Positions 4,708 to 22,691 of a stretch of 64,000 bases of DNA are shown here, piece after piece. Below the pieces are notes generated by a model. It searched no databases. It was not told the DNA's origin and saw nothing but the letters and a program-made list of their open reading frames with translations. Source of the stretch: Actinokineospora sp. NBRC 105648 (lineage in GTDB: Bacteria > Actinomycetota > Actinomycetes > Mycobacteriales > Pseudonocardiaceae); NCBI RefSeq assembly GCF_030269645.1, contig NZ_BSTR01000023.1, positions 1 to 64,000 on the forward strand, given 5' to 3'. Position 1 is the first letter of the stretch, and each line of letters begins with the position of its first letter. The position numbers and the translations under genes are program-made.

Positions 4708-4739
4708 GTGATCCTCCTGGTCGACACGTGAGACTCGTC

Positions 4740-4764
4740 TACCCGGGGCTGATGACCCCTACAC
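4740..4764 (-). promoter_or_regulatory. candidate SigB/SigF-type promoter of katE
   Basis: On the minus strand GTGT (4764-4761), 16 bases, then GGGTAG (4744-4739). This fits the GNNT-N14-16-GGGTA pattern described for actinobacterial SigB/SigF promoters, 32 bases upstream of the katE start. The -35 part is loose, so this is suggestive only. Confidence 0.4.
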
Positions 4765-4900
4765 GTGAACCACCCGCCCGAACGGGGACCCGACAATTTG
4801 TCCACTGTGGACACTAAATATCGATCGAATGCTTTGGACGCGCGGCAAACTCGCCGCGTGCCGCGGTCCGGTTCCCATGACAGCGGTTCTTCCGCTACAG

Positions 4901-4936
4901 CGCAGTGAGTGTTGTCAGCGCAGTGGGTGTTGTCGG
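4901..4936. repeat. 18-base tandem direct repeat (2 copies, 2 mismatches)
   Basis: Two adjacent copies, cgcagtgagtgttgtcag and cgcagtgggtgttgtcgg, in the gap between the start of katE and the end of the hydrolase gene. Function unknown; the rest of this 315-base gap shows no gene. Confidence 0.6.
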
Positions 4937-5022
4937 GTACGCGCGTCCCGGCTTGGTGGCCGTCTGGCGGTGATCGTCGTCAGCGCGGTGTCTGGGCACG
5001 TCCCGACGAAAGGACCCCCAGG

Positions 5023-6063
5023 CTAACCCGGTCGCCGAGTTCCCGCGTGCCGGACCGCGCGCTCGTCCCCGTCGGGACCGCCCAGCCAGGCGAGCACGGC
5101 GTCGTAGACGGCGTCGTGGCGCAGGAGCGCGAAGTGGTTGAGGCCGCCGAGCCACCGGAGGTCCGCGGTCTGGGTGTGGTCGCCCGCGCTGCTCGAGGCG
5201 ACCATCAGGTCGCCGAGGAGCCGTCCCCACAGGCTCCCCTCGGTGCGGGCGAGCGTGCTCGCGACGAAGTACTGGCGCAGCCCCGCCGGAAGCCTGGTCG
5301 CCGTGCTCGCGTCGGCCGCGGCAGCCTGCCCGGACCACTGGGCCCGGTGCAGGCGGCCCTGGGCGAGGTCCTTGATGCCGTCGCTGCGCAGGCCGAGGAC
5401 TCGTGCCAGGGGAGCGGTGACGACGAGTCCGTCGAGCACCGCCGCGGTTCGGACCACCCACCGCTCGAGGGGGGCTCCGGTGTGCGGCGTCCCCAGGCAC
5501 ACCAACCGGGTCGTCGGGCTGGTCCACGGCGCGGACTCGGCAGTGGCCTGGTGCAGGGCGCTGCGGGCGACGAGCCCGCCCATCGAGTGCCCGATGAGGA
5601 TGATCTCGGTGACGGTCACCGGCCAGGACCCGACCAGGCGGGTCAGCAGGTCGGTGAGCTCGCGGCCGTTGTCGGAGACGTGCCGCCCGGTGTTGTACCG
5701 CAGGTAGACCGCGGTCGCGGGCAGGTCCGCGGCGAACCTGCTCCCGTAGTCGGTGCCCGAGCGGGATCGAGCCGGTTCGTCCCGGTGGTACCACGCGCGT
5801 TCGGTGTCCAGCAGGCCGTGCAGGAGCACCACGATCCGGCTCGACGCCGCGGGGTAGGCCGCCGCGAGGGACGCGCGGTCGACGGCGATCCGACGACCGT
5901 CCACTCGCACGGTCATGGCCGCGGGCAGCACCCCACGGCGGAGGTCGGCGTTCTCACCGAACAGGCCGGTCGCGATCCCCACGACGCGCGTGCCCGCGAC
6001 GGAGCGGAGGAGCCTGTGCCCAGTCCGGTGCCACACCGGTCGCCGGACCGCGGTTGTCGGCAT
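5023..6063 (-). CDS. alpha/beta-hydrolase (lipase/esterase-like)
   Basis: A 346-residue alpha/beta-hydrolase. VVLLHGLLDTERAW gives the oxyanion-hole HG motif, LIGHSMGGLVARSA the nucleophile elbow (GHSMG), and GLNHFALLRHDAV supplies the likely catalytic His. The GTPHTGAPLE block and the nucleophile context resemble PGAP1/triacylglycerol-lipase-like hydrolases. No signal peptide is clear, although the N-terminus is basic and hydrophobic. The ATG at 6063 was chosen because homologous sequence begins shortly after it; the frame stays open far upstream over the opposite-strand crtE gene, which is a GC artefact. It is divergent from crtE. Substrate unknown. Confidence 0.8.
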   Translation of the reverse strand: MPTTAVRRPVWHRTGHRLLRSVAGTRVVGIATGLFGENADLRRGVLPAAMTVRVDGRRIAVDRASLAAAYPAASSRIVVLLHGLLDTERAWYHRDEPARSRSGTDYGSRFAADLPATAVYLRYNTGRHVSDNGRELTDLLTRLVGSWPVTVTEIILIGHSMGGLVARSALHQATAESAPWTSPTTRLVCLGTPHTGAPLERWVVRTAAVLDGLVVTAPLARVLGLRSDGIKDLAQGRLHRAQWSGQAAAADASTATRLPAGLRQYFVASTLARTEGSLWGRLLGDLMVASSSAGDHTQTADLRWLGGLNHFALLRHDAVYDAVLAWLGGPDGDERAVRHAGTRRPG

Positions 6064-6257
6064 GTGGAGTTCCTGTCCCGGGTGGTCCGGTGTCTTGACC
6101 CGGCCGTTGTCGTCGCGGATGGCCCGCAGTCCTGAGTGCCCGGTCGAGCGGTCCTGCACACCGTGGACACCGTGTTTGTGACGGACATCCCCTGGTGCGG
6201 GCACCCGCGGACGGCTTGTGCCCGGTCGCGACAAGCGCACCTGATCGTGACCGCGAC

Positions 6258-6282
6258 GTTTCGACCGCGCTCTAGCGGCTAC
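6258..6282 (+). promoter_or_regulatory. candidate stress-sigma promoter of crtE
   Basis: GTTT (6258-6261), 15 bases, then GGCTAC (6277-6282), one mismatch from the SigB-type GGGTAC, about 48 bases before the crtE start. In Streptomyces griseus/setonii, crt genes depend on CrtS, a SigB-like factor, so such a promoter would make sense here. Confidence 0.35.
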
Positions 6283-6329
6283 CCACGGCACACGCCCATC
6301 GTCAGGGTCGAGACGGAGAGGCGGTGCGC

Positions 6330-7424
6330 ATGGGACTCTCGCTCGCGGATCAGACACCGGTGACCGAGCACGAGCCGTTCGACCGGTGGCGGGCCCGGGT
6401 GCGTGACTCGGCGGCGGCGCAGGTCGGGGTGTTCGTGTCGCAGCGGTGCGACGAGCACCTCGCACCGGCCCCCGAGACGGCGTTCCTCGGCGAGGTGCTG
6501 GTCGGGTTCGTGGCGTCCGGGAAGTTCCTGCGGTCGGCGTTCGTGCTCGCGGGTGTGCTCTGTGGACAGCCCGAGTCGGCGGCGGCGGTGCGCGCCGCGG
6601 CCAGTGCCGAGCTGCTGCACTGCTTCGCGCTGCTACAGGACGACGTGATGGACGGCTCGCCCACCCGCAGGGGCGCGCCGTCCGCGCACGTGCGGTTCGC
6701 CGACTGGCACCGGCGGGCCGGACTGCCGGGATCATCGGCCCGGTTCGGGGAGTCGGCCGCGGTGCTCGCCGCGGACCTCTGCCTGGTGTGGGCGAGCCAG
6801 TTGCTCCGGGAGTGCGGCCTGCCCCCGGACGCCGTGGCGCGGGCGCTGCCGCGCTACGACTGGATGCGCGCGGAGTTGGCCGTGGGCCAGCTGCGGGACC
6901 TGGCGAACCAGGCCAGCGAAGACCCGTCGCTGGTCGAGGTGCTGGCCATCGCGCGGGCCAAGTCAGGGCACTACACCGTGCGCAGACCGGTGGAGCTGGG
7001 TGCCGACCTCGCGGGCTGCCTGCCCGAGGTCTTGGCCGCGCTCGGGGTCTACGGCGACGCGATCGGCGAGGCCTTCCAGCTCCGCGACGACCTGCTCGGA
7101 CTCTTCGGCGACCCCGCGACCACCGGCAAGCCACGCGGGGAGGACCTGCGCGCGGGTCGGGCGACCAGCGTGCTCGTGGTGGCCCGCGACCTGGCCACGC
7201 CCGCCCAGCGGCGGGCGCTGCGGCTCGGACCCGAGCCGGGTGACGACGCGGTGGACCGGTGCCTGGCCGTGGTCGAGGAGACGGGGGCCAGGCACCACGT
7301 CGAGCGCCTGATCGATCAGCGGTTGCGGAACGGCCTGGCCGCCCTGGCGTCCGCGGCGATCCCGGTGGCGGCGCGGGAGTACCTGACCGGGCTCGCGCGG
7401 CTCAGCTGCGTACGAGACCACTGA
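6330..7424 (+). CDS. crtE: geranylgeranyl diphosphate synthase
   Basis: A 364-residue trans-isoprenyl diphosphate synthase that condenses IPP with allylic diphosphates to give C20 GGPP, the carotenoid precursor. The first Asp-rich motif is DDVMDGSPTRRG (104-115) and the second RDDLLGLFGD near residue 250; both bind Mg-diphosphate. It heads the crtE-crtI-crtB set, with crtI 26 bases downstream. Start: ATG at 6330 has GGAGAGG 8 bases upstream; an in-frame GTG at 6324 is the alternative. It could in principle make another chain length, but the cluster context argues for GGPP. Confidence 0.92.
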   Translation: MGLSLADQTPVTEHEPFDRWRARVRDSAAAQVGVFVSQRCDEHLAPAPETAFLGEVLVGFVASGKFLRSAFVLAGVLCGQPESAAAVRAAASAELLHCFALLQDDVMDGSPTRRGAPSAHVRFADWHRRAGLPGSSARFGESAAVLAADLCLVWASQLLRECGLPPDAVARALPRYDWMRAELAVGQLRDLANQASEDPSLVEVLAIARAKSGHYTVRRPVELGADLAGCLPEVLAALGVYGDAIGEAFQLRDDLLGLFGDPATTGKPRGEDLRAGRATSVLVVARDLATPAQRRALRLGPEPGDDAVDRCLAVVEETGARHHVERLIDQRLRNGLAALASAAIPVAAREYLTGLARLSCVRDH

Positions 7425-7450
7425 CCGCTGATCGGCCCACGAGGAGAGCG

Positions 7451-8932
7451 ATGCGCACCGTACGGGGCAAGACGGATCACGTGGTCGTCGTGGGAGCCGG
7501 GTTGTCCGGCCTGTCGGCGGCCGTGCACCTGGCCGGACGCGGGCGCCAGGTGACCCTGCTCGAACGCGACAGCGTCCCAGGGGGCCGCGCGGGCAGGCAC
7601 GACATGGCGGGGTACCGGGTCGACACCGGCCCCACGGTGCTCACCATGCCGGACATCCTCGACGAGACCCTTGCCGCGGTCGGCTCGTCGGTGCGGGAGC
7701 GCCTCGAGCTGCTCCCGCTGACCCCGGCCTACCGGGCACACTTCGCCGACGGGTCCCGGCTGGACGTGCACAGCGACGCCGGGGCCATGACCGAGGCGGT
7801 CCGCGGGTTCGCCGGACCCGCCGAGGCGGACGGGTACCTGCGGTTGCGGCGCTGGCTGACCCGGCTGCACGAGGTCGAGTACGACCGGTTCATCGCCGCG
7901 AACGTCGACTCGCCGCTGTCGCTGCTGACCCCGACCCTGGCCCGGCTCGCGGCGATGGGCGGGTTCCGCAGGCTCGACCGCGCGGTGGGCCGGTTCATCT
8001 CCGACGAGCGGCTGCGGAGGGTGTTCACCTTCCAGTCGCTCTACGCGGGCGAGGCACCGAGCCGGGCGTTGGCGGTCTACGCGGTGATCGCCTACATGGA
8101 CACCGTGGCAGGCGTGTACTTCCCGCGCGGCGGCATGCGCGCGGTGCCCGACGCCCTCGCCGACGCCGCCCGGGAGGCGGGCGTGGACATCCGCTTCGAC
8201 ACCCGGGTCGAGGAGCTGGAGCGACGGGGGAGCCGGATCACCGCCGTGCGCACCGCCCACGGTGACCGGGTCGAGTGCGACGCGGTCGTGCTGACCACCG
8301 AGCCGCACACGGCCTACCGGCTGCTGGGGCGCACGCCGCGCAGGCTCGTCCGGCTGCGCGCGGCGCCCTCGGCGGTAGTCGTCCACCTGGGACTGGACCG
8401 CGCGTTCCCGGACACCGCGCACCACTCGCTCTCGTTCGGGCGGGCCTGGGACAGCACCTTCGACGAGATCATCCGGGTGGGCACCACGATGCGCGACCCG
8501 TCGCTGCTGATCACCCGGCCCACCGCGACCGACCCCGCCCTGGCGCCGGCCGGTCGCGACCTGCTCTACCTGCTGGCCCCGGTGCCGAACCTGGACGCGG
8601 GGGCCATCGACTGGGCCCGCGACGGCAAGGCCTACGCCGAGGAGGTCGTCGAGGTGGCCCAGCGCAGGCTGCTGCCCGGCCTGGCGGGCTCGGTCGTGGC
8701 CACGCACCTGGTCACCCCGGCCGACTGGGCCGCCCAGGACCACACCGCTGGGACACCGTTCAGCTACGCGCACTCCCTGCCCCAGACCGGGCCGTTCCGA
8801 CCGGCGAACTTCCCGCGCTGGAGCGACAACGCGGTGCTCGCGGGTTCGGGGACGGTGCCGGGGGTCGGCGTGCCGACAGCACTGGTCTCCGGGCGGCTCG
8901 CCGCCGACCGGATCACCGGGACCACGCCGTGA
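7451..8932 (+). CDS. crtI: phytoene desaturase
   Basis: A 493-residue FAD-dependent desaturase that turns colourless phytoene into a coloured polyene, probably lycopene or a close relative. The N-terminal Rossmann motif is VVVVGAGLSGLSAAVHLAGRG, followed by GGRAGRHDMAGYRVDTGPTVLTMP, typical of CrtI. The C-terminal dinucleotide-binding block is GSGTVPGVGVPTALVSGRLAA. The RBS is GAGGAGAG before the ATG. The stop TGA overlaps the crtB GTG (GTGA), so the two are translationally coupled. How many desaturation steps it performs cannot be told from sequence. Confidence 0.92.
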   Translation: MRTVRGKTDHVVVVGAGLSGLSAAVHLAGRGRQVTLLERDSVPGGRAGRHDMAGYRVDTGPTVLTMPDILDETLAAVGSSVRERLELLPLTPAYRAHFADGSRLDVHSDAGAMTEAVRGFAGPAEADGYLRLRRWLTRLHEVEYDRFIAANVDSPLSLLTPTLARLAAMGGFRRLDRAVGRFISDERLRRVFTFQSLYAGEAPSRALAVYAVIAYMDTVAGVYFPRGGMRAVPDALADAAREAGVDIRFDTRVEELERRGSRITAVRTAHGDRVECDAVVLTTEPHTAYRLLGRTPRRLVRLRAAPSAVVVHLGLDRAFPDTAHHSLSFGRAWDSTFDEIIRVGTTMRDPSLLITRPTATDPALAPAGRDLLYLLAPVPNLDAGAIDWARDGKAYAEEVVEVAQRRLLPGLAGSVVATHLVTPADWAAQDHTAGTPFSYAHSLPQTGPFRPANFPRWSDNAVLAGSGTVPGVGVPTALVSGRLAADRITGTTP

Positions 8933-9912
8933 CCCGGCGCGAGCTCGACGCCGCGGGCATCGACGACCCGGTGCTGCGCGCCGCCTACGCCCGCTGCCGC
9001 GCGCTCAACGCCGCGCACGGGCGCACCTACTTCCTCGCCACCCGCTTGCTCGCACCGAGCCAGCGGCCCGCGATCCACGCCCTCTACGGGTTCGCCCGCT
9101 GGACCGACGACCTGGTGGACGAACCCGCCCCGGGCGCGACACCGGCCGAGCTCGACGGCGCCCTCGCGAAGATCACCCGCCACCTCGACCGCGGGCTCGA
9201 GGCGGGCCACGACGACCACCCGGTGGTCGCCGCGGTGGTCGACACCACCCTCCGGTACGGCGTCGACCCGGGGTTGTTCACCGCGTTCATGGCCTCGATG
9301 CGGATGGACCTGCAGGTCACCGACTACGCCAGCCGCGCCGACCTGATGCGGTACGTGCACGGGTCGGCCGAGGTGATCGGCTTGCAGGTGCTGCCGGTGC
9401 TGGGCACCGTGACCAGCCAGGCCGAGGCCGCCCCGCACGCCGCGGCCCTCGGGCGGGCCTTCCAACTCACCAACTTCCTGCGCGACGTCGCCGAGGACCT
9501 CGACCGCGGTCGGGTCTACCTGCCCGCCGACGAGCTGGCCTCCTTCGGCGTCGACCGTGAACGGCTCCTGTGGTGCCGCGCGATGGGCCGCGCGGACAAA
9601 CCGGTCCGCGCGGCCCTCGGTCACCAGGCGGCGATCGCCCGGGACGTCTACCTGATCGCTCGACGCGGCATCCCGATGCTGCACCCGGTGTCCCGGCCGT
9701 GCGTGGAGACGGCACTGGTGCTCTACGCCGAGATCCTGCACCGGATCAGCGACCTCGACCACGACGTGTTCGCCGGTCGCGCCCGGGTCGGCGGCAGGCG
9801 GAGGGCGGCCGTGGCCGGACGTGCCCTCGCAGGGGCGGTCTGGGCTCGTAGGGGAGGTAGGGCACCGCGGGCCCCCGCTGACAACAAGACCGTCCAGGCC
9901 CGCGTGGCGTGA
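8929..9912 (+). CDS. crtB: phytoene synthase
   Basis: A 327-residue squalene/phytoene synthase that joins two GGPP molecules to phytoene. The first Asp-rich motif is YGFARWTDDLVDEP and the second GRAFQLTNFLRDVAEDLDRG, with the RVYLPADEL block after it; all are diagnostic. The GTG start at 8929 overlaps the crtI stop by four bases. The Arg/Ala-rich tail after about residue 300 is ordinary for the family in high-GC hosts. Pathway order is CrtE, CrtB, then CrtI, although gene order is E-I-B. Confidence 0.92.
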   Translation: MTRRELDAAGIDDPVLRAAYARCRALNAAHGRTYFLATRLLAPSQRPAIHALYGFARWTDDLVDEPAPGATPAELDGALAKITRHLDRGLEAGHDDHPVVAAVVDTTLRYGVDPGLFTAFMASMRMDLQVTDYASRADLMRYVHGSAEVIGLQVLPVLGTVTSQAEAAPHAAALGRAFQLTNFLRDVAEDLDRGRVYLPADELASFGVDRERLLWCRAMGRADKPVRAALGHQAAIARDVYLIARRGIPMLHPVSRPCVETALVLYAEILHRISDLDHDVFAGRARVGGRRRAAVAGRALAGAVWARRGGRAPRAPADNKTVQARVA

Positions 9913-10000
9913 TCGGGCCGAGCCGAACCGGACCGGTGGCGGCCGGCCCCGGCGAAATCCAGGCGACTTCGTCGGTTGTTTCCGGCCAGTATGGCCGGGT

Positions 10001-10747
10001 ATGGACGAGGTTGAAGTCGTTGTCGCTCACAGTCAGCGCGCGACGCTGCGCGTGGGTGGGGTGTTCCTGAAGGTCGACGGCGACCCGGCGCACGCCGGTG
10101 TGGAGGTTCGGGCGATGGCCATGGCGCCGATACCAACCCCGGCGATCCTGTGGCACGAGCCGCCGGTGCTCGCCATCGCCGCCGTGCCCGGCACGGCGCT
10201 CGGCGTCCTCGGTGAACCGTCGACCGCGTCACCGGCGGCGTGGGCCGCGGCGGGGGCCGCCATCCGCAGGCTGCACGACGCGCCGCTGCCACCGTGGCCG
10301 GGTCGGAGCCTCGACGACGTGGCGGCGGAGCTCGACCGCGAGTGCGCGTGGCTGCTCGACAACGCGGTGCTGCCCGCCGACGTGGTCCTGCGCAACCGCG
10401 AGATCGCCGAGGCCGCGCTGCGGCCGTGGACACCGGTGTTCATCCACGGCGACCTGCAGATCACCCATGTGTTCGTCGACGGCGACGAGGTCACCGGCGT
10501 CATCGACTGGTCCGAGGCCGCCCCCGGCGACGCCATGTTCGACCTGGCCACCCTGACCCTCGGGCACGAGGAGCGCCTGAACGACTTGCTCGCGGGCTAT
10601 GGGACCGGCGCCGACCGGGACGTGATCCGCGCTTGGTGGTCCCTGCGCAGCCTGGTGGTGTCGCGCTGGCTGATCGAACACGGCTTCGACCCGGACACGC
10701 CGGGGTGCGAGTTCGACGTCCTCCGGTCCCGGATGCGAGAACCCTGA
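10001..10747 (+). CDS. APH-family phosphotransferase
   Basis: A 248-residue kinase-like protein of the aminoglycoside/choline-kinase fold. The catalytic loop is FIHGDLQITHVFVDG, in which the usual Asn of HGDxxxxN is His, and the metal-binding block is VTGVIDWSEAAPGDAMFDLA. Members phosphorylate small hydroxylated molecules; the substrate is not predictable. The ATG at 10001 is the first start that leaves a sensible N-terminus. It follows crtB by 88 bases on the same strand but need not belong to carotenoid synthesis. The altered catalytic-loop Asn may lower or change activity. Confidence 0.75.
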   Translation: MDEVEVVVAHSQRATLRVGGVFLKVDGDPAHAGVEVRAMAMAPIPTPAILWHEPPVLAIAAVPGTALGVLGEPSTASPAAWAAAGAAIRRLHDAPLPPWPGRSLDDVAAELDRECAWLLDNAVLPADVVLRNREIAEAALRPWTPVFIHGDLQITHVFVDGDEVTGVIDWSEAAPGDAMFDLATLTLGHEERLNDLLAGYGTGADRDVIRAWWSLRSLVVSRWLIEHGFDPDTPGCEFDVLRSRMREP

Positions 10748-10968
10748 GCAAACCATGTCCCCGACGGTGAGTTCCCCGCCATCGATCTCCGGGCAGGACC
10801 GGGATTCGCCCGGCGGTGCGCATCGAGGGCGAGGCACACACCGTGATCCGGCACCGCGACCCGCGGACCCGGTGGGCGACCCCAGCACCCGACAACAACG
10901 GCGTCTTTGTCCCCGTCGGGCGGCTACCCCGCGCGGCCGCTGAGCACGACCGTGGAGTCCACCGACAC
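10748..10968. other. convergent intergenic gap
   Basis: 221 bases between the ends of the phosphotransferase and Rieske genes. No gene or obvious long hairpin is seen. Confidence 0.4.
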
Positions 10969-12003
10969 TCACGAGGGGCCGTGCCGCAGGGCGTAGCGGC
11001 GCTGGGCGTAGGCCAGGTCGTCGCGCCAGAGACGAGCGGCGCCCCAGCGCATCAGCGGGCGCAGCAAAGGGGCAGCGCGGTGGGCGGCGGCGAACCCCGC
11101 CCGGTCGGAGACCGCCACCACGGCCTCTGTGACCGCGGTGCGCGCCCGTCCGTCCACGCCCCGGGGCAGCGGGGTGGCGTGGGTCTCCACGACGCTGCCC
11201 GCGCCCTCGCCGTCGGTGATCCGCATCAGCACCGTGCGCGGCTCCGGGCAGGTGAACTCCGCGCGCACCGGTACGCCCAGGCGCGGGCCCAGGCGGAAGG
11301 TCACGTCCACCACGAACCGATCGTGACCGCCACAGCCACCGCCACGGTCACCCCCGCCGGTCTCGCTCGGCGCGCTCAGCACGTTCAGCCGGGCGAAGGA
11401 GTACGGGTGGAACCAGGCGCCGTGCCAGGGGTCGAGGCGGTTGGCGATGATGTCGACCGGCTCGCACACGCCGGTCAGCCGCGCCACGGCGGCGATGCCG
11501 AGGGCGGGGTCCGGTCGCCCGACGATCACCGGCGCGGGCAAGGGGTCCTCGCCGCCGAGGGCGTCGAGCCGCACCCAGGCGAGGACGCCGTCGTCGTGCG
11601 CGGGCAGCGGTCGCCAGCCGGGGCCGCCGTCGCGGTCCAGGGGCAGGCCGTGCCAGCGGCAGCGCAGGGTGCCGCAGTCGACCCGCCCGGCGGCCAGCGG
11701 CGCGCCCAGGTGCGGGCACGCGCCGGGGCCGATCACCAGGGTGTTGTCCGCGGCCCGCCAGGCGACCAGCTCCACACCGCCCACATATGTCCCAAAAGGA
11801 CGGTCGGGTCGGATGTCCGAGCTCGCCGCGAGGACGAACCAGTTGCCCGAGGGGCGAGCCGACGCGCGGGCCACCGCCGCCTCGATCAGGGCCGGGCGGG
11901 CGTCGGCGAAGGTCGGGCGCTGCCGGGACCACTCCTGCGGCTCGAGCGGGCGCACCGGCACCGAGTCGGGCCACCGCCGCCGCAGCCAACCGGACACCGC
12001 CAT
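10969..12003 (-). CDS. Rieske non-heme iron oxygenase in the carotenoid cluster
   Basis: A 344-residue protein with a complete Rieske [2Fe-2S] site, C96-P-H98 in GACPHLGAPL and C115-R-W-H118 in TLRCRWHGL. It also has a D-x2-H-x4-H mononuclear iron motif, D191-P-W-H194 to H199 in NRLDPWHGAWFH. Both halves of a Rieske oxygenase are therefore present. I recall similar actinobacterial proteins labelled DUF5914, uncertainly. Its position between crtB and the cruF-cruG-crtD set suggests a carotenoid-modifying oxygenase, which is inference. The ATG at 12003 has GAGGGAG upstream; a TTG at 12009 is the alternative. It lies 11 bases downstream of the YihY-type gene, probably one transcript. A reductase partner is not nearby. 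Confidence 0.75.
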   Translation of the reverse strand: MAVSGWLRRRWPDSVPVRPLEPQEWSRQRPTFADARPALIEAAVARASARPSGNWFVLAASSDIRPDRPFGTYVGGVELVAWRAADNTLVIGPGACPHLGAPLAAGRVDCGTLRCRWHGLPLDRDGGPGWRPLPAHDDGVLAWVRLDALGGEDPLPAPVIVGRPDPALGIAAVARLTGVCEPVDIIANRLDPWHGAWFHPYSFARLNVLSAPSETGGGDRGGGCGGHDRFVVDVTFRLGPRLGVPVRAEFTCPEPRTVLMRITDGEGAGSVVETHATPLPRGVDGRARTAVTEAVVAVSDRAGFAAAHRAAPLLRPLMRWGAARLWRDDLAYAQRRYALRHGPS

Positions 12004-12014
12004 GGGCAACTCCC

Positions 12015-12884
12015 TCAGTCTCGGTCACCACTGTGGACCTGATCGGCCCGGCCCGCCCGACTGGTCGCCGCGACGCTCAGGACCGCCTGGTGGCCGACCA
12101 ACAGCACCACGTGCAGCAGGTAGAGCCACAGCGCCCAGGCCGAGACCGCGCCGATCAGCGGCAGCCCGGCGAACGGCGCGTCCCAGTCCAGCAGGATGGC
12201 CAGGAACAGCAGGAACCCGTGCAGGAAACCGGAGAGCACCGCGCCGAGGCCGAACCCGGCCGCGATCGCCGCGCTCGGCGTCGCGGACGAGTTGACCGCG
12301 AACACCAGGGACAGCCCGATGGACACGACCACCCAGAGCACGTGGAAGGACACGACCACCCCGAGCACCGGGTACCAGCCCGTGCCGGTGTAGAGCGGTT
12401 CGACGACCGGCGCCGCGGTGAGGACCAGGATCGCGGCCACCGGGGCGGTGGCGACGACCGGCAGGAAGCCCAACCGCCCCTTCCACCCGGCCGCCGCGTC
12501 CACGGGCGCGCCCGCCACCTGGCGCATGGCCCGCCGCAGCCCCTCGCCGTAGAACGTCGCGGGCAACAGGACCACGACCGCCACCCACCACGGCATGCGC
12601 AGGGCGGCCTCGGCGAACGCCACGATGCCGCCTCCGCCATCGTGCGCGTCGGGCAGCATCTTGGTGACCGCCCGCGCTCCCCGCAGGACCACCGACGGCG
12701 AGGTGAGCAGGGCCGCCCCCCGGGCGGCGATGAGCAGCAGCGGGACCGTGGCCAGGATGGCGAAGAAGGTCAGGCCCGCCGCCCACAGGGACACGTCCCG
12801 GCCGCGCAACCCCGCCGCGGCGTGCCGCACTGTGTCCCGGACCCGGCGCACGGCCGACCCGGCGGGATCTCGGGTCACCGTCAT
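12015..12884 (-). CDS. YihY/BrkB-family membrane protein
   Basis: A 289-residue integral membrane protein of the YihY/UPF0761 (formerly BrkB) family. The signature segment is AAGLTFFAILATVPLLLIAA near the N-terminus, followed by roughly six hydrophobic spans, the last near WALWLYLLHVVLLVGHQAVL. The family is often mislabelled ribonuclease BN; its function is unsettled. It precedes the Rieske gene by 11 bases and is divergent from the CDP-alcohol phosphatidyltransferase gene. GGGTAC sits nine bases before the ATG, the spacing also seen at ndh and ppk2. Its role in the cluster is unknown. Confidence 0.8.
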   Translation of the reverse strand: MTVTRDPAGSAVRRVRDTVRHAAAGLRGRDVSLWAAGLTFFAILATVPLLLIAARGAALLTSPSVVLRGARAVTKMLPDAHDGGGGIVAFAEAALRMPWWVAVVVLLPATFYGEGLRRAMRQVAGAPVDAAAGWKGRLGFLPVVATAPVAAILVLTAAPVVEPLYTGTGWYPVLGVVVSFHVLWVVVSIGLSLVFAVNSSATPSAAIAAGFGLGAVLSGFLHGFLLFLAILLDWDAPFAGLPLIGAVSAWALWLYLLHVVLLVGHQAVLSVAATSRAGRADQVHSGDRD

Positions 12885-12962
12885 GGGCGCCGGGTACCCG
12901 GTAGGCGGGCGTTCCTACCCACCGGCGCATACCGTGAGGTCATCAACACAAGGAGAGCACCA

Positions 12963-13643
12963 GTGGCGCAGGACGGCGAGCCCACCGAGAGCGCCGTGGC
13001 GGGCTGGTCCCGGCTGCACGGGGTCGACGTGTCCGGCAGCCCGGTCGTGGTGGGCTGGCTGCGGCTGGTGCACGCCTGCGCGCGGCCGGTGCGCCGAGTG
13101 CCGCCTGATGTCCTCTCCGCGATCGGTGTGCTGTGCGCCGCAGGTGCCGTGGCGGTCGCGGCGGCCGGTGGGCGGTGGCCGTTGCTCGCGGCGCTGCTCG
13201 TCGTGCTCACCGGGCTGCTCGACGGCCTCGACGGCGCGGTCGCGCTGCTTACCGGGCGCGCCCGGCCGCTGGGCGCGGTCGTCGACGCCGTGGCCGACCG
13301 ACTGGGCGACATGGCGTTCGTCGGTGTCCTCGTGGTGCTCGGTGCCCCGGCGTGGTGGTGCGCGGCGGTCGCGGCCGCGGTGCTGCTGCACGAGTACGCC
13401 AGGGCCCGGGCCCAGGGCGCGGGGATGACGGGGGCAGGGGCGGTGACCGTCGCGGAGCGCCCGACCAGGGTCATCGTCACCACCGTGGTCGCCGTGGGCG
13501 CTGGGGTCTTCCCCGGCGGCGCGCCGGGGCCCGGGTGGGCGTGGGGGTTGGTCGGTGCCGTCACCTGGTCGGCGTTGGCGGCGGTCGGTCTGGTCCAGCT
13601 CGCGGTGGGTATCAAGCGTTCCCTCGCCGAACCGCGCGGGTGA
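12963..13643 (+). CDS. CDP-alcohol phosphatidyltransferase-family membrane protein
   Basis: A 226-residue membrane protein with the CDP-alcohol phosphatidyltransferase signature LLDGLDGAVALLTGRARPL continuing to GAVVDAVAD. All four metal/catalytic Asp residues are in place, but the Arg of the consensus DGxxAR is Leu. Such enzymes transfer a phosphoalcohol from CDP-diacylglycerol or CDP-inositol-type donors. AAGGAG precedes the GTG start at 12963. It ends exactly at the base before the convergent crtD-like gene. Its place among carotenoid genes is conserved or accidental; I cannot tell. The Arg-to-Leu change could alter substrate choice. Confidence 0.8.
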   Translation: MAQDGEPTESAVAGWSRLHGVDVSGSPVVVGWLRLVHACARPVRRVPPDVLSAIGVLCAAGAVAVAAAGGRWPLLAALLVVLTGLLDGLDGAVALLTGRARPLGAVVDAVADRLGDMAFVGVLVVLGAPAWWCAAVAAAVLLHEYARARAQGAGMTGAGAVTVAERPTRVIVTTVVAVGAGVFPGGAPGPGWAWGLVGAVTWSALAAVGLVQLAVGIKRSLAEPRG

Positions 13644-15122
13644 TCACGCGGGGCCGATGAGGTCCGCGACGATCTCGGCCGACAGCGCCACCAGCGGCAG
13701 CCCGCCGCCCGGGTGCGCCGAGCCGCCCACCAGGTAGAGACCGGGCACGGGGGAGCGGTTGGCCGGGCGCAGCAACGCGGCGCGGGGCCCGTTGGAGGAG
13801 GTGCCGTAGATGGATCCGCCGGGGGAGCGGGTTTCCCGCTCCCACCACGCCGGGCTGCGGATCTCCCGCCACAGCAAGCGGTCCCACACGTCCAGGCCGC
13901 GCTCGGCCAGCACCGAGAGGACCCGGTCCGCGTAGCGCTCGGCCAGCCCGGGCGCGTCCCAGTCGACACCGCCCGCCGGGTCGTGGCGGGGCGCGTTGAC
14001 CAGGACGAACCACGCCTCGTGGCCCGCGGGCCGAACGGTGGGGTCGTCGGGGGCGCAGATGTAGACCGTCGGGTCGGGGACCGGGCGCGGACGCTTGCCG
14101 AAGATGGCGTCGAACTCGGCCGCGTAGTCGGCCGGGAACAGCACCCGGTGGTGCCGCGGTAGCTCGGACCGTCCGCGCAGCGCGAGCAGCAGCACGAACC
14201 CGGCCAGTGACGGCTGGGCGCGCCGAAGGGAGCGCCGGGGGCGACGCGCGCGCGGGTCGGTGACGAGGTCGCCGTAGAGGTGCTCGGCGTCGGCGTCGGA
14301 GACCACGGCGGTGGCGGCCAGCCGCTCGCCGTCGGCGAGCCGGACGCCGGTGACCCCGTTCCGGTCGGTGCGCACCTCGGCGACCTCGGTGTCCAGGCGG
14401 ATGGTGACGCCCAGGTCGAGGCAGTGCCGGTGCAGGGCGTCGGCGAGGCCGCGCAGCCCACCGCGCACGTACCAGCCGCCGAACCGCTGCTCGATGTAGG
14501 GCACGACGGTCATCAGGGCCGGGGTGCGGCGCGGGTCGGACCCGGAGTAGGTGGCGTAGCGGTCGAGGAACTGCCGCAGCCGGGGGTCGGAGAGCTCGCG
14601 CGCCCCGAGCGCGTGCAGCGTGCGCCAGGGAGCGATCGCCCACAGGTCGCGGGGGTTGGTCGAGTGCTTGAGCAGGTCGCGCACGCCGTTGAGCGGTTTG
14701 CGCAGCACCGGCTCGCCCACCAGGTCCCACAGCCGGTTCGCCTGGGTCATCAGCCCGGTCCACTCGGTGCCCGCGGCCGGGCCCAGGGCCGCGGCCAGCG
14801 CGTCGGGGATCTTGCGGTGGTCGTGCGGGATGTCCAGCTCGGTCCCGTCGGCGAAGCGGTAGTGGCAGGTCGGCTCAACGGGAGCGACCTCGACCACGGC
14901 GTCGAGGTCACCGCCGGTGTCGGCGAACAGCCTGCGGTAGACCTCGGGGAGGGTGAGCAAAGAGGGGCCGGTGTCGAAGCTGAAACCGTCCCGGTCGAAC
15001 ACGCCGAGCTTGCCGCCGGATGCCGGGGACCGCTCGCACACGGTCACCGCGTGCCCGCCCGCGGCCAGTCGCGCGGCGACGGCGAGCCCGCCCATGCCCG
15101 CCCCGATCACCACGACGCCCAC
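13644..15122 (-). CDS. CrtI/CrtD-type carotenoid desaturase
   Basis: A 492-residue FAD-dependent carotene desaturase family member. The N-terminal motif is VVVIGAGMGGLAVAARLAAG, then SGGKLGVFDRDGFSFDTGPSLLTLP; the C-terminal block is YLVGGSAHPGGGLPLVALSA, the form usual for CrtI/CrtD enzymes. A separate crtI exists at 7451, and this gene is joined to cruG and cruF homologues. A C-3',4' desaturase acting on the acyclic end group (CrtD role) is therefore the likeliest reading; a ketolase/oxygenase of the CrtO type is an alternative. The GTG start at 15122 abuts the cruG stop with no gap, so it is last in a coupled three-gene operon. Confidence 0.75.
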   Translation of the reverse strand: MGVVVIGAGMGGLAVAARLAAGGHAVTVCERSPASGGKLGVFDRDGFSFDTGPSLLTLPEVYRRLFADTGGDLDAVVEVAPVEPTCHYRFADGTELDIPHDHRKIPDALAAALGPAAGTEWTGLMTQANRLWDLVGEPVLRKPLNGVRDLLKHSTNPRDLWAIAPWRTLHALGARELSDPRLRQFLDRYATYSGSDPRRTPALMTVVPYIEQRFGGWYVRGGLRGLADALHRHCLDLGVTIRLDTEVAEVRTDRNGVTGVRLADGERLAATAVVSDADAEHLYGDLVTDPRARRPRRSLRRAQPSLAGFVLLLALRGRSELPRHHRVLFPADYAAEFDAIFGKRPRPVPDPTVYICAPDDPTVRPAGHEAWFVLVNAPRHDPAGGVDWDAPGLAERYADRVLSVLAERGLDVWDRLLWREIRSPAWWERETRSPGGSIYGTSSNGPRAALLRPANRSPVPGLYLVGGSAHPGGGLPLVALSAEIVADLIGPA

Positions 15123-16229
15123 TCAGCTGCTCCCGTCCAGCGCCCGGCCCTTCCAGGTCAGCCCCCCGGTCAGCCGGGCCCACCACGACCGGGCGACGAG
15201 CCCGAGCAGCACCGCCACCGACACCGGGTGCGCGAGCGCGTCCGGCCAGACCCGTGCCCCGGTCTTGCGCCCGGTGACCACCCGGCTGGCGACCCCGGCG
15301 AGGTAGCCGACCAGACCCGCCCGCGACCCGAACAGCGCGGCCACCGGCGGAACCAGGTAGACCCAGCCGAACGCGCCCACCACGGCGGCAGCCGCCCACG
15401 GCGACCCCGTGGCCGACCAGAGCGACTTCTCGTACCCGCGGCCCAGGTCCGACCACCCGGCGTACATCCGGCACCGCGCGACGGTGCTCCCGTCGACCAG
15501 CGCGGTCCGCCCACCCGCGCGCTTGAGCAGCCGGACCACCGCCATGTCGTCCAGCACCGCGCCCGCGATGGCCTCGTAACCGCCCGCCGCCCGCAGGGAA
15601 GCGGCGTCGATCACCAAGAACTGCCCGTTCGCCGCCGACATCGACGGCCTCGGCGAGCGTTCGGCCAGTCGCATCGGCAGCAGCACCAGCAGCAACCACT
15701 GCAACAGCGGTTGGGTGAGTCGCGGTCCGAGCCCGTCGGCGAGCTGGCGCGGGAACGGCGACACCGCCACCAGCCCGTTGCCCCGCAGGAGTTCCACGGC
15801 GGCCGCGACGGCGTGCGGCGCCAACTCCACGTCGGCGTCGACCAGCACGACCACCGCCCCGCGCGCCTCGCGGACCAGGTGCGCACAGGCGTGCGGTTTG
15901 CCCGGCAGGCCCGCGGGTGGCGGCTCGCCGACCAGGACCCGGACCCGCTCGTCGTCGCCCCCGACCCGGCGCACGACCCCGGCCGTGTCGTCGGTCGAGC
16001 AGTCGTCGAGCACCAGGATCTCCAGGTCGGGCAGCCCGCGTTGGGCCATCAGCGAGCGCAGCGCCGGGGTGATGCGATCGGCCTCGTCGCGCGCGGGCAG
16101 CAGCACCGACACCGACTCGCGGCACGGCCGCGGGCGGGCGGGCGGAACGCGGATCAAGCGGGCGTTGAGCACCGAGTGCGCGGCCCCGAGCACCGCCGCG
16201 ACGGCCGCCCCGAAAACCCAACGGCTCAC
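15123..16229 (-). CDS. cruG: CruG-like family 2 glycosyltransferase
   Basis: A 368-residue GT2 enzyme anchored by an N-terminal hydrophobic segment and by C-terminal ones. Core blocks are SVLLPARDEADRI, LEILVLDDCSTDDTAGV, VVLVDADVELAPHAV (DxD) and the later GAVLDDMAVVRLLK acceptor-site region. CruG enzymes glycosylate the 2'-hydroxyl of myxol-type carotenoids in cyanobacteria; the association with a CruF homologue supports a carotenoid glycosyltransferase here. GTG at 16229 overlaps the cruF stop (GTGA). Diacylglycerol or hopanoid glycosylation would be the main alternative. Confidence 0.72.
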   Translation of the reverse strand: MSRWVFGAAVAAVLGAAHSVLNARLIRVPPARPRPCRESVSVLLPARDEADRITPALRSLMAQRGLPDLEILVLDDCSTDDTAGVVRRVGGDDERVRVLVGEPPPAGLPGKPHACAHLVREARGAVVVLVDADVELAPHAVAAAVELLRGNGLVAVSPFPRQLADGLGPRLTQPLLQWLLLVLLPMRLAERSPRPSMSAANGQFLVIDAASLRAAGGYEAIAGAVLDDMAVVRLLKRAGGRTALVDGSTVARCRMYAGWSDLGRGYEKSLWSATGSPWAAAAVVGAFGWVYLVPPVAALFGSRAGLVGYLAGVASRVVTGRKTGARVWPDALAHPVSVAVLLGLVARSWWARLTGGLTWKGRALDGSS

Positions 16230-17032
16230 CGTCCCCACCGGGCCCGGGCCGACCTGACGACCACCCACGCGTAGGGCAGCGCCACGAGACCCATCAGCAG
16301 ACCACCGACCAGCGACACCCACGGCCGGTCGAAGAACGCGGCGTGGGCCCACACCGAGGACACGTAGGTCCACACGTACAGCGCGGGCGCGGGACCGGCG
16401 GCCACGTCGGACGGGTCCCCCCGGTCGCGAGGGACCCAGGCGTGCAGGCAGGCGACGATGACGACCGCGACCACCAGCCACCCCGCGAAGTTCGACACGG
16501 GCACCCCGGACACCCCCGGCAGGGCGGGCTCGGGATCCGACCAGGACCAGTACCCGGCGTCGACCATCTGCGGGTCGAGGAAGACGTCCCACGAGGCCAG
16601 GGCCCAGGCGCCCACGACGACGGCCCACCGGCCCACCCCGAGCGCGCGGCCGACCAGCAGCGCGGGCCAGGCCATCATCACCCAGGCCAACGGCACCACC
16701 GCGGGCACGCCGAGCACCGACCACCCCAGGTCGCCGGAGTAGGCGTACTCGCCGAACGGCAGGCCCGTGTGGACACCGACGACCTCCGCCAGCAGACCGC
16801 CGCCACCGGCGAACACCAGCAGCCCCACTGCCGCGCGCGGACCACCGCGCACGGCGGCGTCCACCACCGACGCCGCCGCGAAGAACAGCACGGTGAGAAC
16901 GGTGAGCGGGACCCGACCGCCGGGTTCGGTCTTGGAGTAGAGGATCTGGCTCAGCACATACCCCAGCGCGCACGACCACGCGAGGACGACCGCGACGCGC
17001 GAGCCGACCACCGCGGTGCGCGACAGGACCAT
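16226..17032 (-). CDS. cruF: carotenoid 1',2'-hydratase, CruF type
   Basis: A 268-residue membrane protein of the CruF (DUF422) family, which adds water across the terminal double bond of an acyclic carotenoid end to give a tertiary 1'-hydroxyl. Diagnostic blocks are HTGLPFGEYAYSGDLG, GVPAVVPLAWVMMAWPALL, WDVFLDPQMVDAGYWSW and GVPVSNFAGW. About seven hydrophobic spans are visible. It is first in the cruF-cruG-crtD operon and divergent from crtU; the 85-base gap between them must hold both promoters. The RBS is weak. Confidence 0.85.
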   Translation of the reverse strand: MVLSRTAVVGSRVAVVLAWSCALGYVLSQILYSKTEPGGRVPLTVLTVLFFAAASVVDAAVRGGPRAAVGLLVFAGGGGLLAEVVGVHTGLPFGEYAYSGDLGWSVLGVPAVVPLAWVMMAWPALLVGRALGVGRWAVVVGAWALASWDVFLDPQMVDAGYWSWSDPEPALPGVSGVPVSNFAGWLVVAVVIVACLHAWVPRDRGDPSDVAAGPAPALYVWTYVSSVWAHAAFFDRPWVSLVGGLLMGLVALPYAWVVVRSARARWGR

Positions 17033-17117
17033 ATCCCGAGCCTAGGACGCCGCGGTCCCGTTGGCGCGCCGACGATTTCACCCGGCGCGGGCCGCACCGC
17101 ACTGCGAGACTTCGGGA

Positions 17118-18719
17118 ATGCTGCCCCTGCGGACCCGGGCCCCGGGCCTGCCGGGGCGTGACCGGGAAGCCCAAGTCCACCCGGGCGCCGCCGGGCGCCC
17201 CACCGTCGACCACCTCGACCGGGTGCCCCGCGTCGCCGTGGTGGGTGGTGGGATCGCCGGCGTCACCGCGGCGGTCGCGCTGGCCGAGCGCGGTGTCCTG
17301 GTCGAGGTGTTCGAACGCGAACCCGAACTGGGCGGGCGGGTCACCGGTTGGCACACCACCCACGCCGACGGGACCGGCGCGACGATGTCGCGCGGCTTCC
17401 ACGCCTTCTTCCGCCAGTACTACAACCTGCGCGCCCTGCTCCGCAGGATCGACCCTGACCTCGCGATGTTCACCCCGGTGGCGGACTACCCGCTGGCCCA
17501 CCACGACGGCACCACCGAGACGTTCGCCGGGTTGCCGCTGACCCCGCCGTGGAACGTGGCCTCGTTCGTCCTGCGCAGCGACACCTTCACCCTGCGCGAC
17601 CTCACCCGGATGAACCCCACCGCGGCGGCGGGCCTGTTCGACGTGTCCGTGCCCGGTGTCTACGACCGACTGGACACAGTGGACGCAGGCACCTACCTGA
17701 CCGACATCGGCTTCCCCGACGCGGCCAGGCACCTGGCCTTCGAGGTGTTCTCCCGCAGCTTCTTCGCCCACCCGGAGTCGTTGTCGGCGGCCGAGTTGGC
17801 GACCATGTTCCACATCTACTTCCTCGGCTCCAACGAGGGCCTCCTCTTCGATGTGCCGACTTCTCCTTACCCGCGAGCGATCTGGCGCCCGCTGCACGCG
17901 CACCTGACGGACCTGGGCGCACGCGTGCGCACCGGTGTCGAGGTGGATCGGATCACGCGCGGCCGCGATCGACCGCACCGCGTCGGGGACCACGAGTTCG
18001 ACGCCGTGGTCCTGGCAGCGGACACCGCGGGCCTACGCGACGTCGTGTCGCGGTCGGAACACCTCGGCGACCCGGGGTGGCGCGGAAGTGTGTCGCGCCT
18101 GCGGACCGCGCCGCCGTTCCTGGTCAGCCGCTACTGGCTCGACCGGCCGGTCGACACCGACCGCGCCGCGTTCCTGGGTACGAGCGGCTACCGCTATCTC
18201 GACAACATCAGCGTGCTCGACCGCTTCGAGGACGAGGCGCGCCAGTGGAATCGGCAGACGGGCGGGTCCGTCGTGGAACTGCACGCCTACGCACTCGCCG
18301 AGCCCATCGACACCCGCCAGACCGCCGAAGCCGCCTACGCGGAGGCGTGCCTGCTCTATCCCGAACTACGGCGAGCGAGGCCGTCGCACACCGAACACGT
18401 CCTGCGCGCCGACTGCCCGCTCTTCGCCCCCGGCACCTTCACCGACCGTCCAACGGTGTCGACCCCCGATCCGACTGTGGTGTTGGCGGGCGACCTCGTC
18501 CGGGTCGAGTTGCCCGTCGCGTTGATGGAACGGGCCGCCACCACGGGATTCCTGGCCGCCAACACCCTGCTCGCGCGGTGGAGCGTACGCGGGCACGATG
18601 TCTGGACCGTCCCCAACGGCGGCAGGTCCCCGCTGCTGCGCCGCGCCGCCCGACGTGCGGCCGCCCGCCAGAAACGGCACAACGGCACGCAGGCACCATC
18701 GGAACCGCTTCCTCGGTGA
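17118..18719 (+). CDS. crtU: carotene beta-ring desaturase/methyltransferase (isorenieratene synthase type)
   Basis: A 533-residue FAD enzyme that aromatises a beta-ionone ring and shifts a methyl group, giving chi or phi end groups. The dinucleotide motif is RVAVVGGGIAGVTAAVALAE, and SRGFHAFFRQYYNLRALLRR is the hallmark of CrtU. The substrate must carry a beta-ring, yet no lycopene cyclase is visible in the window. Start choice: ATG at 17118 with a weak RBS; homology-like sequence begins near residue 25 (GRPTVDHLDRVPR), so a later GTG is possible. A basic, low-complexity tail ends the protein. The IS lies 130 bases downstream. Confidence 0.88.
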   Translation: MLPLRTRAPGLPGRDREAQVHPGAAGRPTVDHLDRVPRVAVVGGGIAGVTAAVALAERGVLVEVFEREPELGGRVTGWHTTHADGTGATMSRGFHAFFRQYYNLRALLRRIDPDLAMFTPVADYPLAHHDGTTETFAGLPLTPPWNVASFVLRSDTFTLRDLTRMNPTAAAGLFDVSVPGVYDRLDTVDAGTYLTDIGFPDAARHLAFEVFSRSFFAHPESLSAAELATMFHIYFLGSNEGLLFDVPTSPYPRAIWRPLHAHLTDLGARVRTGVEVDRITRGRDRPHRVGDHEFDAVVLAADTAGLRDVVSRSEHLGDPGWRGSVSRLRTAPPFLVSRYWLDRPVDTDRAAFLGTSGYRYLDNISVLDRFEDEARQWNRQTGGSVVELHAYALAEPIDTRQTAEAAYAEACLLYPELRRARPSHTEHVLRADCPLFAPGTFTDRPTVSTPDPTVVLAGDLVRVELPVALMERAATTGFLAANTLLARWSVRGHDVWTVPNGGRSPLLRRAARRAAARQKRHNGTQAPSEPLPR

Positions 18720-18848: not shown

Positions 18849-19790
18849 TGAGCCCTTTTTCATCCTGCGGTGGCCTCGTGGTTCTGTAGGACGTGGATGG
18901 TTTTGGCGAGTCGGCCGGCGCGGCGGGGGCAGCAGCGGAGCTTGCGCAGGATGCGCGAGGTCTTGAGTTGGGCGTTGGCGCGTTTGCCGGGGCCGCGCAG
19001 GCGGGCATGAGCGCGGTTGGCGTCCTTCTGCGACTCGGGTTTGTTACGACCCTTGTACGGGGTGATCACGTGACGGCCGGTCTGGTCGTAGCCGTGACAC
19101 CCCTTGTCTTCCACAGCGATCAGCCCAGCGTCGCGCAGCGCGGCGAGGATGTTGAAGATCCTGGCGGCGGCGGTGTCGTGGGTACTGCCCGGCAGGTCAC
19201 CGGAGACCCACGCCGATCGTCCCATCCGGGGACGCGATCACCTGCAGGTTCACCCCGTGCATCCTGTGTTTACCCGAGTAGAACGGTCGGTCCGCGGCGA
19301 CCCTGTCGATCGGGATCAACGTGCCATCGATCACCACATGGGCCATGCCTTGCCGCTTCGCCCCGCCCAACGCTTCCCGCGGCTTCGGGGACCGCCGGGC
19401 CGGCAACTCGACGACTTCGTTGACATAACGCCAGCAGGTTGTCGTGCAGACCTCGAACCCGGCGCCCACCTCGGCGAACGGCTCACCCTTGCGCAGGTAC
19501 ACCAGCCCAAGCAGTGCCTGCCGTCCTGGGTTGAGCTTGCGCCACACCGACCCCAACTCCCGGCAGTGGGCGCGGACGAGTCCAGACACAAAAGTCAGGG
19601 TCTGATGCGACAACGGCAGTGCGGCACGGTAGAACAACACGTGAAGCCCCTGAGGTGCGGAACGATCTTGGTCGAAACCTCTGCTACCAGGGCCCTCGCC
19701 ACGTCTGGAACCCGACACGCCGACCATCGACCAGTTGTGATCAACATCCCCTGTACGCCAACACATCCACATCAGGATGAAAAGGGCTCA
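18849..19790 (-). mobile_element. IS5-family insertion sequence, 942 bp
   Basis: The ends are imperfect inverted repeats: tgagcccttttt then catcctg at 18849-18867, and caggatgaaaagggctca at 19773-19790. They are identical but for one extra T. A single transposase gene fills the element on the minus strand and is frameshifted. The stop codon lies inside the left repeat. No clear target duplication is seen. The element sits between crtU and katG and does not break an identifiable gene. Confidence 0.75.
18860..19772 (-). pseudogene. IS5-family transposase, frameshifted
   Basis: The N-terminal part (19772-19197) carries HVVIDGTLIPIDRVAADRP with the first catalytic Asp, and the C-terminal part (19225-18860) carries WVSGDLPGSTHDTAAARI and NAQLKTSRILRKLRCC with the remaining catalytic region. 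The parts are in different frames. Around 19206-19218 the reading needs three bases between ACGATC and TGGGTCTCC, but four (GGCG) are present, so a one-base insertion explains the break. No slippery heptamer is seen, so programmed frameshifting is unlikely. Confidence 0.75.
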
Positions 19791-19927: not shown

Positions 19928-22655
<2,728 letters not shown>

Positions 22656-22662
22656 CCGGCCG

Positions 22663-22691
22663 ACTGTAGGTCCGTTTCTGGAACTCTTCAA
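22663..22691 (-). promoter_or_regulatory. furA-katG promoter, probably leaderless
   Basis: The -35 TTGAAG (22691-22686) and -10 TACAGT (22668-22663) are separated by exactly 17 bases. The furA GTG begins only seven bases after the -10, so transcription should start at or next to the start codon. The spacer contains TTCCAGAAACGG, the likely region of FurA autoregulation. Confidence 0.65.

Follow-up and report, generated by a model that had tools for sequence, protein, structure and literature searches.

Which carotenoid does the gene region on contig C23 of Actinokineospora sp. NBRC 105648 encode, and how could it acquire an aromatic ring where no ring-forming enzyme is found? The window, that is, the whole 64,000-nucleotide stretch analysed here, represents contig C23 of a genome assembly of 8.43 Mb in 149 contigs. 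A sequence-only reading of this DNA had listed crtE-crtI-crtB, a cruF-cruG-crtD-like operon and crtU. All of them were present, and every named gene was an open reading frame with a start and a stop (Table 1). The crtEIB genes, the cruF operon and crtU, which is divergent from cruF, span one 12.4 kb stretch. In our reading (probability about 0.78), this stretch holds most of a sioxanthin-type C40 pathway whose genes fall into sub-clusters and whose lycopene cyclase is unlinked. The best-fitting product predicted from the genes is most likely orange in colour, a monocyclic aryl, 1'-hydroxylated, 3',4'-desaturated and glycosylated carotenoid of the sioxanthin or OH-chlorobactene-glucoside kind. 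Gene presence, open frames, conservation and the presence of a cyclase were observed directly.

A CrtL-type lycopene cyclase outside the cluster

Contig C23 held no match to PF05834 or to the CrtYcd model TIGR03462. The one cyclase-like signal there was an NAD-binding stub of crtD, which scored 20.1 bits against a cut-off of 23.4. A cyclase on the window's contig was rejected on these PF05834 and TIGR03462 scans, CruA and CruP not having been searched with models of their own. A CrtYcd cyclase in the genome was rejected as well, since TIGR03462 matched nothing genome-wide. PF05834 nevertheless returned a full-length CrtL-type cyclase of 372 residues, isolated on another contig, at G000:C2:399810-400886 (G000 is the window's own genome, further G numbers are sampled genomes and L numbers are loci). 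The statement that no lycopene cyclase is present thus holds for the window's contig and fails for the genome, and the first alternative of the sequence-only reading, a ring-forming enzyme elsewhere, was borne out.

The C2 cyclase scored 153.7 bits against PF05834 (156.1 bits as a protein, covering positions 1-375 of 380) and 200.5 bits against the lycopene cyclase family TIGR01790, which has a cut-off of 209.5. It retains the GxGPAG and EET motifs. Translations read by eye place an EAL-type gene on one side of it and an HD-domain gene on the other. The protein was 45% identical to CrtL-like proteins located <10 kb from cruF at four Mycobacterium/Mycolicibacterium loci (L031, L034, L035, L036), and 53% identical to a 94-residue piece adjoining crtE at the edge of the Actinophytocola oryzae locus (L013). 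Such a CrtL-like neighbour was observed in 5 of the 51 full-flank loci, many of which are mycobacterial. Hence, this type of cyclase does accompany such clusters, and here it is separate from the cluster. A phmmer search with the C2 cyclase gave no match among solved structures, nor did tblastn match it to either of two Streptomyces loci in which a cyclase is annotated. In the literature, CrtL is reported in C40 actinobacteria (PMC2889829), and a one-ended cyclase, CrtLm, comes from R. erythropolis AN12 (PMC7502451).

A wider view was obtained by sampling 150 genomes from the order, with a PF05834 threshold of E <= 1e-12. The cruF gene was present in 81 genomes, of which 36 had a PF05834 protein, 47 had CrtYcd and 79 had one or the other. 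A known cyclase class was found in all genomes with both cruF and crtU (26/26). The CrtL-type cyclase on C2 removes the need to invoke an unassigned membrane protein, or a new cyclase, for ring formation. The apparently incomplete pathway is explained by an unlinked cyclase.

Predicted pathway and product

The CruF, CrtD and CruG families act on the open end of a carotenoid, and CrtU acts on a ring. Given a one-ended cyclase, this division of substrates would lead to a product of the sioxanthin or OH-chlorobactene-glucoside kind. In the proposed pathway, CrtE, CrtB and CrtI would provide lycopene, the unlinked CrtL-type cyclase would close a beta-ring at one end, and CrtU would aromatise the beta-ring to the aryl (phi) type. 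The open end would be hydrated across C-1',2' by CruF, yielding a tertiary alcohol, desaturated at C-3',4' by CrtD and given a sugar by the CruG-like GT2 enzyme. Hydroxylation of the aryl ring is the probable role of the CrtV-like Rieske oxygenase described below. The product is expected to be a membrane antioxidant with one end polar and the other less polar. Every reaction, the step order and the restriction of cyclisation to one end derive from family knowledge. The sequence-only reading had already proposed one aromatic and one hydroxylated, possibly glycosylated end; the gene set implies the same, and such actinomycete pigments exist.

Family-level models were matched by crtE, crtI, crtB, the GT2 domain and cruF, and crtD scored above the TIGR02734 family cut-off. 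Compared with the pathways to sioxanthin and OH-chlorobactene glucoside, the genome contains the lycopene core, a cyclase and a CrtU-type enzyme, and, at family level, the CruF hydratase, the glycosyltransferase and the 3',4'-desaturase. No model naming CrtU appeared among the best 25 of 46 matches of the putative crtU product, and Pfam returned flavin amine oxidoreductase. We use the name CrtU because the protein is 57-58% identical to the flavin adenine dinucleotide (FAD) enzyme in the crtU position of two Streptomyces clusters (L109, L110). A single crtU was found in the window's genome (E <= 1e-40). Its product is 50-61% identical to copies that lie beside DUF5914 genes and 42-44% identical to the crtU product of G015. 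Five relatives (G034, G059, G083, G122, G144) have two crtU copies, which may mean two aromatic pigments per organism.

A CrtV-like Rieske oxygenase

The gene list of the sequence-only reading omitted a Rieske/DUF5914 oxygenase near crtB. This protein carries CxH-CxxH, the motif of a [2Fe-2S] cluster, and NxxDxxHxxxxH, that of a mononuclear iron. Both were kept at >=95% in an alignment of 22 sequences that contains the window's own, and were invariant in the 18 sequences of alignment A4. The structure model, with a predicted local distance difference test (pLDDT) score of 87.8, matched Rieske oxygenases, for example GxtA, SxtT and dicamba monooxygenase. Identity to the DUF5914 proteins encoded after crtB in the Streptomyces atratus and S. 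griseofuscus clusters was 60% and 63%. According to PMC5993118, the V gene of crtEIBV in S. argillaceus encodes a Rieske oxygenase for which 3-hydroxylation of leprotene was proposed, not shown. The identity and position suggest that the Rieske protein is a CrtV orthologue. CruH, considered as a relative, was dropped once CrtV fitted.

DUF5914 was found in 28 of the 150 genomes, and 27 of these also had crtU; the lone genome without crtU, G090, contained only a 42-position fragment. Of 45 genomes with crtU, 18 had no DUF5914, including the group f15/g22, which we took as Micromonospora-like. This pattern links DUF5914 proteins, as CrtV-like oxygenases, with CrtU and matches a ring-hydroxylating role, possibly 3-hydroxylation. 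If it does hydroxylate the ring, the pigment would be a hydroxylated relative of sioxanthin. We must also note that in Amycolatopsis vastitatis (L016, 14907-15806) a MerR-type gene, with a LitR/CarH-like reading, lies between the BrkB-like and Rieske genes; light control is possible there.

Two conserved membrane companions

Two membrane proteins are encoded between the Rieske oxygenase gene and crtD. One resembles CDP-alcohol phosphotransferases (CDP-AP-like), and the other is BrkB-like. The CDP-AP-like profile A1 (E <= 1e-20) was built from cruF-linked loci, which favours linkage. It matched 73 of the 150 genomes, 69 with cruF and 4 without, and left 12 cruF genomes unmatched. In 61 of the 69 genomes with both genes, the two were <12 kb apart; these 61 genomes span ten families, and in 59 of them the two genes were on opposite strands. 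In the rest, the CDP-AP-like gene was far off on the same contig (1 genome) or on another contig (7 genomes). The co-occurrence tests ignore kinship, except for one genus-level count, which gave 31 genera with both, 4 with cruF only, 2 with the CDP-AP-like gene only and 18 with neither (Fisher p 8e-9). At the locus level, the gene was present in 48 of the 51 full-flank loci and was convergent with crtD or cruG in 47 of these 48. A literature search yielded no report of a CDP-AP-like companion of carotenoid clusters, which is not proof of absence.

The signature of CDP-alcohol phosphotransferases is D1xxD2G1xxAR...G2xxxD3xxxD4, with eight conserved residues (PMC4634129). The CDP-AP-like family keeps seven of the eight, and with its Arg replaced the complete signature is lost. 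Among 57 sequences, 54 showed the motif with L (37), I (8), A (4), V (3) or S (2) in the Arg position; of the other three, two end before the motif and one has N there. The four other PF01066 genes of the window's genome retain AR. The structure model (pLDDT 90.9) has the CDP-alcohol phosphotransferase fold and matched 6wmv, 6h53 and 5d91 with template modelling (TM) scores of ~0.6 and E values from 2e-4 to 2e-3. Both the sequence and the model are nearest to actinobacterial PIP synthases. Moreover, an ERPxR stretch is invariant in 12 CDP-AP-like sequences and, by alignment, holds an acceptor-phosphate arginine of PIP synthase (PMC4634129).

The BrkB-like profile A3 was also built from loci found via cruF. 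It matched 45 genomes, all 45 with the CDP-AP-like gene and 44 with cruF. The BrkB-like distribution is therefore nested within the CDP-AP-like set, and the gene is often on another contig. A companion of this kind may be a lipid-side partner of carotenoid glycosides; that it is a membrane-lipid gene merely travelling along is at least as likely. A more specific scheme, which we regard as a long shot, would have the CDP-AP-like protein join a phospho-head group or phospholipid to the carotenoid glycoside, or feed a lipid-linked donor, and the BrkB-like protein move the conjugate across the membrane. If true, it would reveal an overlooked class of phospholipid-like carotenoids, and CrtV would add a further hydroxyl to the aryl ring of the pigment here. 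The two conserved proteins raise the question whether carotenoid glycosides need a membrane-side helper.

Weighing the alternatives

Several observations weigh against the proposed sioxanthin-type pathway. Scores with curated models stayed below the cut-offs for CrtE (NCBIfam model, best 226 bits vs 600), CrtB (158 vs 550, with HpnD higher at 165.5 vs 278.6), CruF (TIGR03460, 113.2 bits vs 154.7), CruG (104.5 vs 600, with HpnB higher at 118.7 vs 379), CrtD (NF045637, 359.8 bits vs 580) and the C2 cyclase (CrtL model NF045687, 192.6 bits vs 500). Lycopene need not come from the window's cluster, because contig C9 carries a second crtE-crtI-crtB set (L108, ~4397-9519), the phytoene-synthase-type gene of which scored higher than that of the window (254.6 vs 222.5 bits). 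No crtD lies between cruG and the CDP-AP-like gene in A. pegani (L008) and A. spheciospongiae (L010); likewise, the Actinosynnema pretiosum locus (L018) had no crtD match, and in all three loci the CDP-AP-like gene comes straight after cruG. According to PMC5993118, S. griseus did not need CrtV for isorenieratene. In addition, 17 of the 28 DUF5914 genomes lack cruF, so the reaction of CrtV is not bound to the glycosylated end. This last count also speaks for a cyclase that acts on both ends. The organism would then make two pigments: CrtL, CrtU and CrtV would yield a dicyclic aromatic carotenoid, either isorenieratene or its 3-hydroxy forms, and CruF, CruG and CrtD would yield a glycosylated carotenoid that is acyclic or non-aromatic. 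A Streptomyces cluster with CrtU, CrtV and CrtY indeed gave 3-hydroxy- and 3,3'-dihydroxyleprotene (PMC5993118), and in the five relatives with two crtU copies one lies by cruF and one elsewhere. The window's genome, however, has a single crtU, which is divergent from cruF, and the C2 cyclase is of the CrtL type, unmatched in the two cyclase-bearing Streptomyces loci and related to the one-ended CrtLm (PMC7502451). Two pigments are unlikely in our judgement.

The sequence-only reading had also speculated that an unassigned membrane protein performs the cyclisation. For this to be the case, the CDP-AP-like or the BrkB-like protein would be the lycopene cyclase and the CrtL-like protein on C2 would act otherwise. 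The CDP-AP-like gene does accompany cruF in 69 of 81 genomes, but its sequence and fold match PIP synthases and not cyclases, and the C2 protein retains the cyclase motifs. The genome counts point the same way: every genome with cruF and crtU has a known cyclase class, G123 and G148, the only cruF genomes in which no such class occurs, carry no CDP-AP-like gene either, and among the 12 cruF genomes that lack the CDP-AP-like gene, 10 possess a known cyclase. We consider this role extremely improbable. A silent or partly decayed cluster with no glycosylated product would agree with the transposase pieces right after crtU and with the lack of crtD at this place in the two sister species; yet all frames are open with start and stop, and the checked catalytic motifs are retained, which leaves decay very improbable. 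The sioxanthin-type pathway with an unlinked cyclase remains our preferred explanation.

Gene organisation and surroundings

The genes are listed in Table 1. The crtI/crtB and cruF/cruG pairs overlap by 4 bases, with the GTG start of crtB on the crtI stop, and crtD abuts cruG; crtI/crtB and cruF/cruG/crtD are for this reason likely to form coupled operons. Promoter and terminator scans found none. A similar gene order was seen in relatives (66 loci), and the closest cruF relatives came from Actinokineospora, Lentzea, Actinophytocola and Saccharothrix. Genome G014, assigned to the same genus as the window's genome, carries a stretch identical to one of A. spheciospongiae EG49 (L105 falls exactly inside L010), which places the genus as Actinokineospora in the taxonomy used. 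The crtI count (47/51 loci) is inflated by crtD cross-matches and was not used. The APH-family gene was rejected as a pathway member, being present in 0 of the 51 full-flank loci.

Table 1. Genes of the carotenoid region, with positions in the window and supporting evidence.
Gene or product	Position	Strand	Evidence or remark
crtE-like, geranylgeranyl diphosphate synthase family	6324..7424	+	PF00348 158.2 bits; DDVMD motif
crtI, phytoene desaturase	7451..8932	+	TIGR02734 517.8 bits, cut-off 238.1
crtB-like, phytoene/squalene synthase family	8929..9912	+	PF00494 222.2 bits; GTG start
APH-family gene	9821-10747	+	between the two operons
CrtV-like Rieske non-heme iron oxygenase (Rieske + DUF5914)	10969..12003	-	PF19299 292 bits, PF00355 56 bits
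BrkB/YihY-like membrane protein	12015..12884	-	PF03631 47 bits
CDP-alcohol-phosphotransferase-like (CDP-AP-like) membrane protein	12963..13643	+	PF01066 41.4 bits; AAGGAG at 12950
crtD-like, putative 1-hydroxycarotenoid 3,4-desaturase	13644..15122	-	best model NF045637 CrtD, 359.8 bits; TIGR02734 355.3
cruG-like GT2 glycosyltransferase	15123..16229	-	PF00535 66 bits
cruF, carotenoid 1,2-hydratase family	16226..17032	-	PF04240 118.5 bits, above cut-off
crtU, putative beta-ring desaturase/methyl-shifting (aryl) enzyme	~17118..18719	+	Streptomyces identity; start uncertain

Transposase pieces (DDE_Tnp_4) lie directly downstream of crtU, at 18860-19772. The carotenoid stretch is flanked by genes for a large catalase (2437-4707), a KatG-like peroxidase (19928-22369) and a Fur-family protein (22230-22691).

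Comparison with known systems

The sioxanthin structure and its unlinked cyclase were reportedly described in Salinispora tropica by Richter, Hughes and Moore in 2015. In that pigment, the end opposite the sugar is said to be an aryl ring, as predicted here, and the cyclase is said to lie apart, as in the window's genome. The literature reports sioxanthin from Salinispora tropica and a Micromonospora (PMC11766884, PMC10298575, PMC5765111, PMC6341766). The further likeness is a glycosylated C40 carotenoid (PMC10298575) with genes that are not in one cluster (PMC6341766). Sioxanthin clusters were present in all but two Micromonospora strains of one study and were non-clustered in Salinispora (PMC5765111, PMC6341766). 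Our results extend the sioxanthin kind to Actinokineospora at the gene level. They also indicate that a glycosylated aryl carotenoid pathway can have its cyclase outside the cluster, so that genome mining confined to clusters may misname the product.

Compared with the Streptomyces crtEIBV-crtUTY cluster of the isorenieratene type, the window shares crtE-crtI-crtB, the CrtV-like DUF5914 protein and CrtU. It differs in that there is no methyltransferase among the identified genes and no linked cyclase, and in the addition of CruF-CruG-CrtD. Rhodococcus sp. CIP is reported to produce OH-chlorobactene glucoside and its hexadecanoate (PMC7502451). The likeness lies in an aromatic carotenoid that bears both a hydroxyl and a glucoside, which here is predicted from genes; the Rhodococcus pigment also occurs as the hexadecanoate.

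In G015, taken as Micromonospora-like, crtE, the CDP-AP-like gene, crtD, cruG and cruF are grouped; crtU and a PF05834 cyclase gene are on the same contig, at a long distance from this group. The cyclase of the window's genome matches profile A2, whereas that of G015 does not (E <= 1e-20). In contrast to G015 and sioxanthin, crtEIB, crtU and the cruF operon all share the 12.4 kb stretch here, and a CrtV-like oxygenase is added. Judged from its genes, the pathway appears intact and sioxanthin-type, known in kind, with the CrtV-like addition and two conserved companions.

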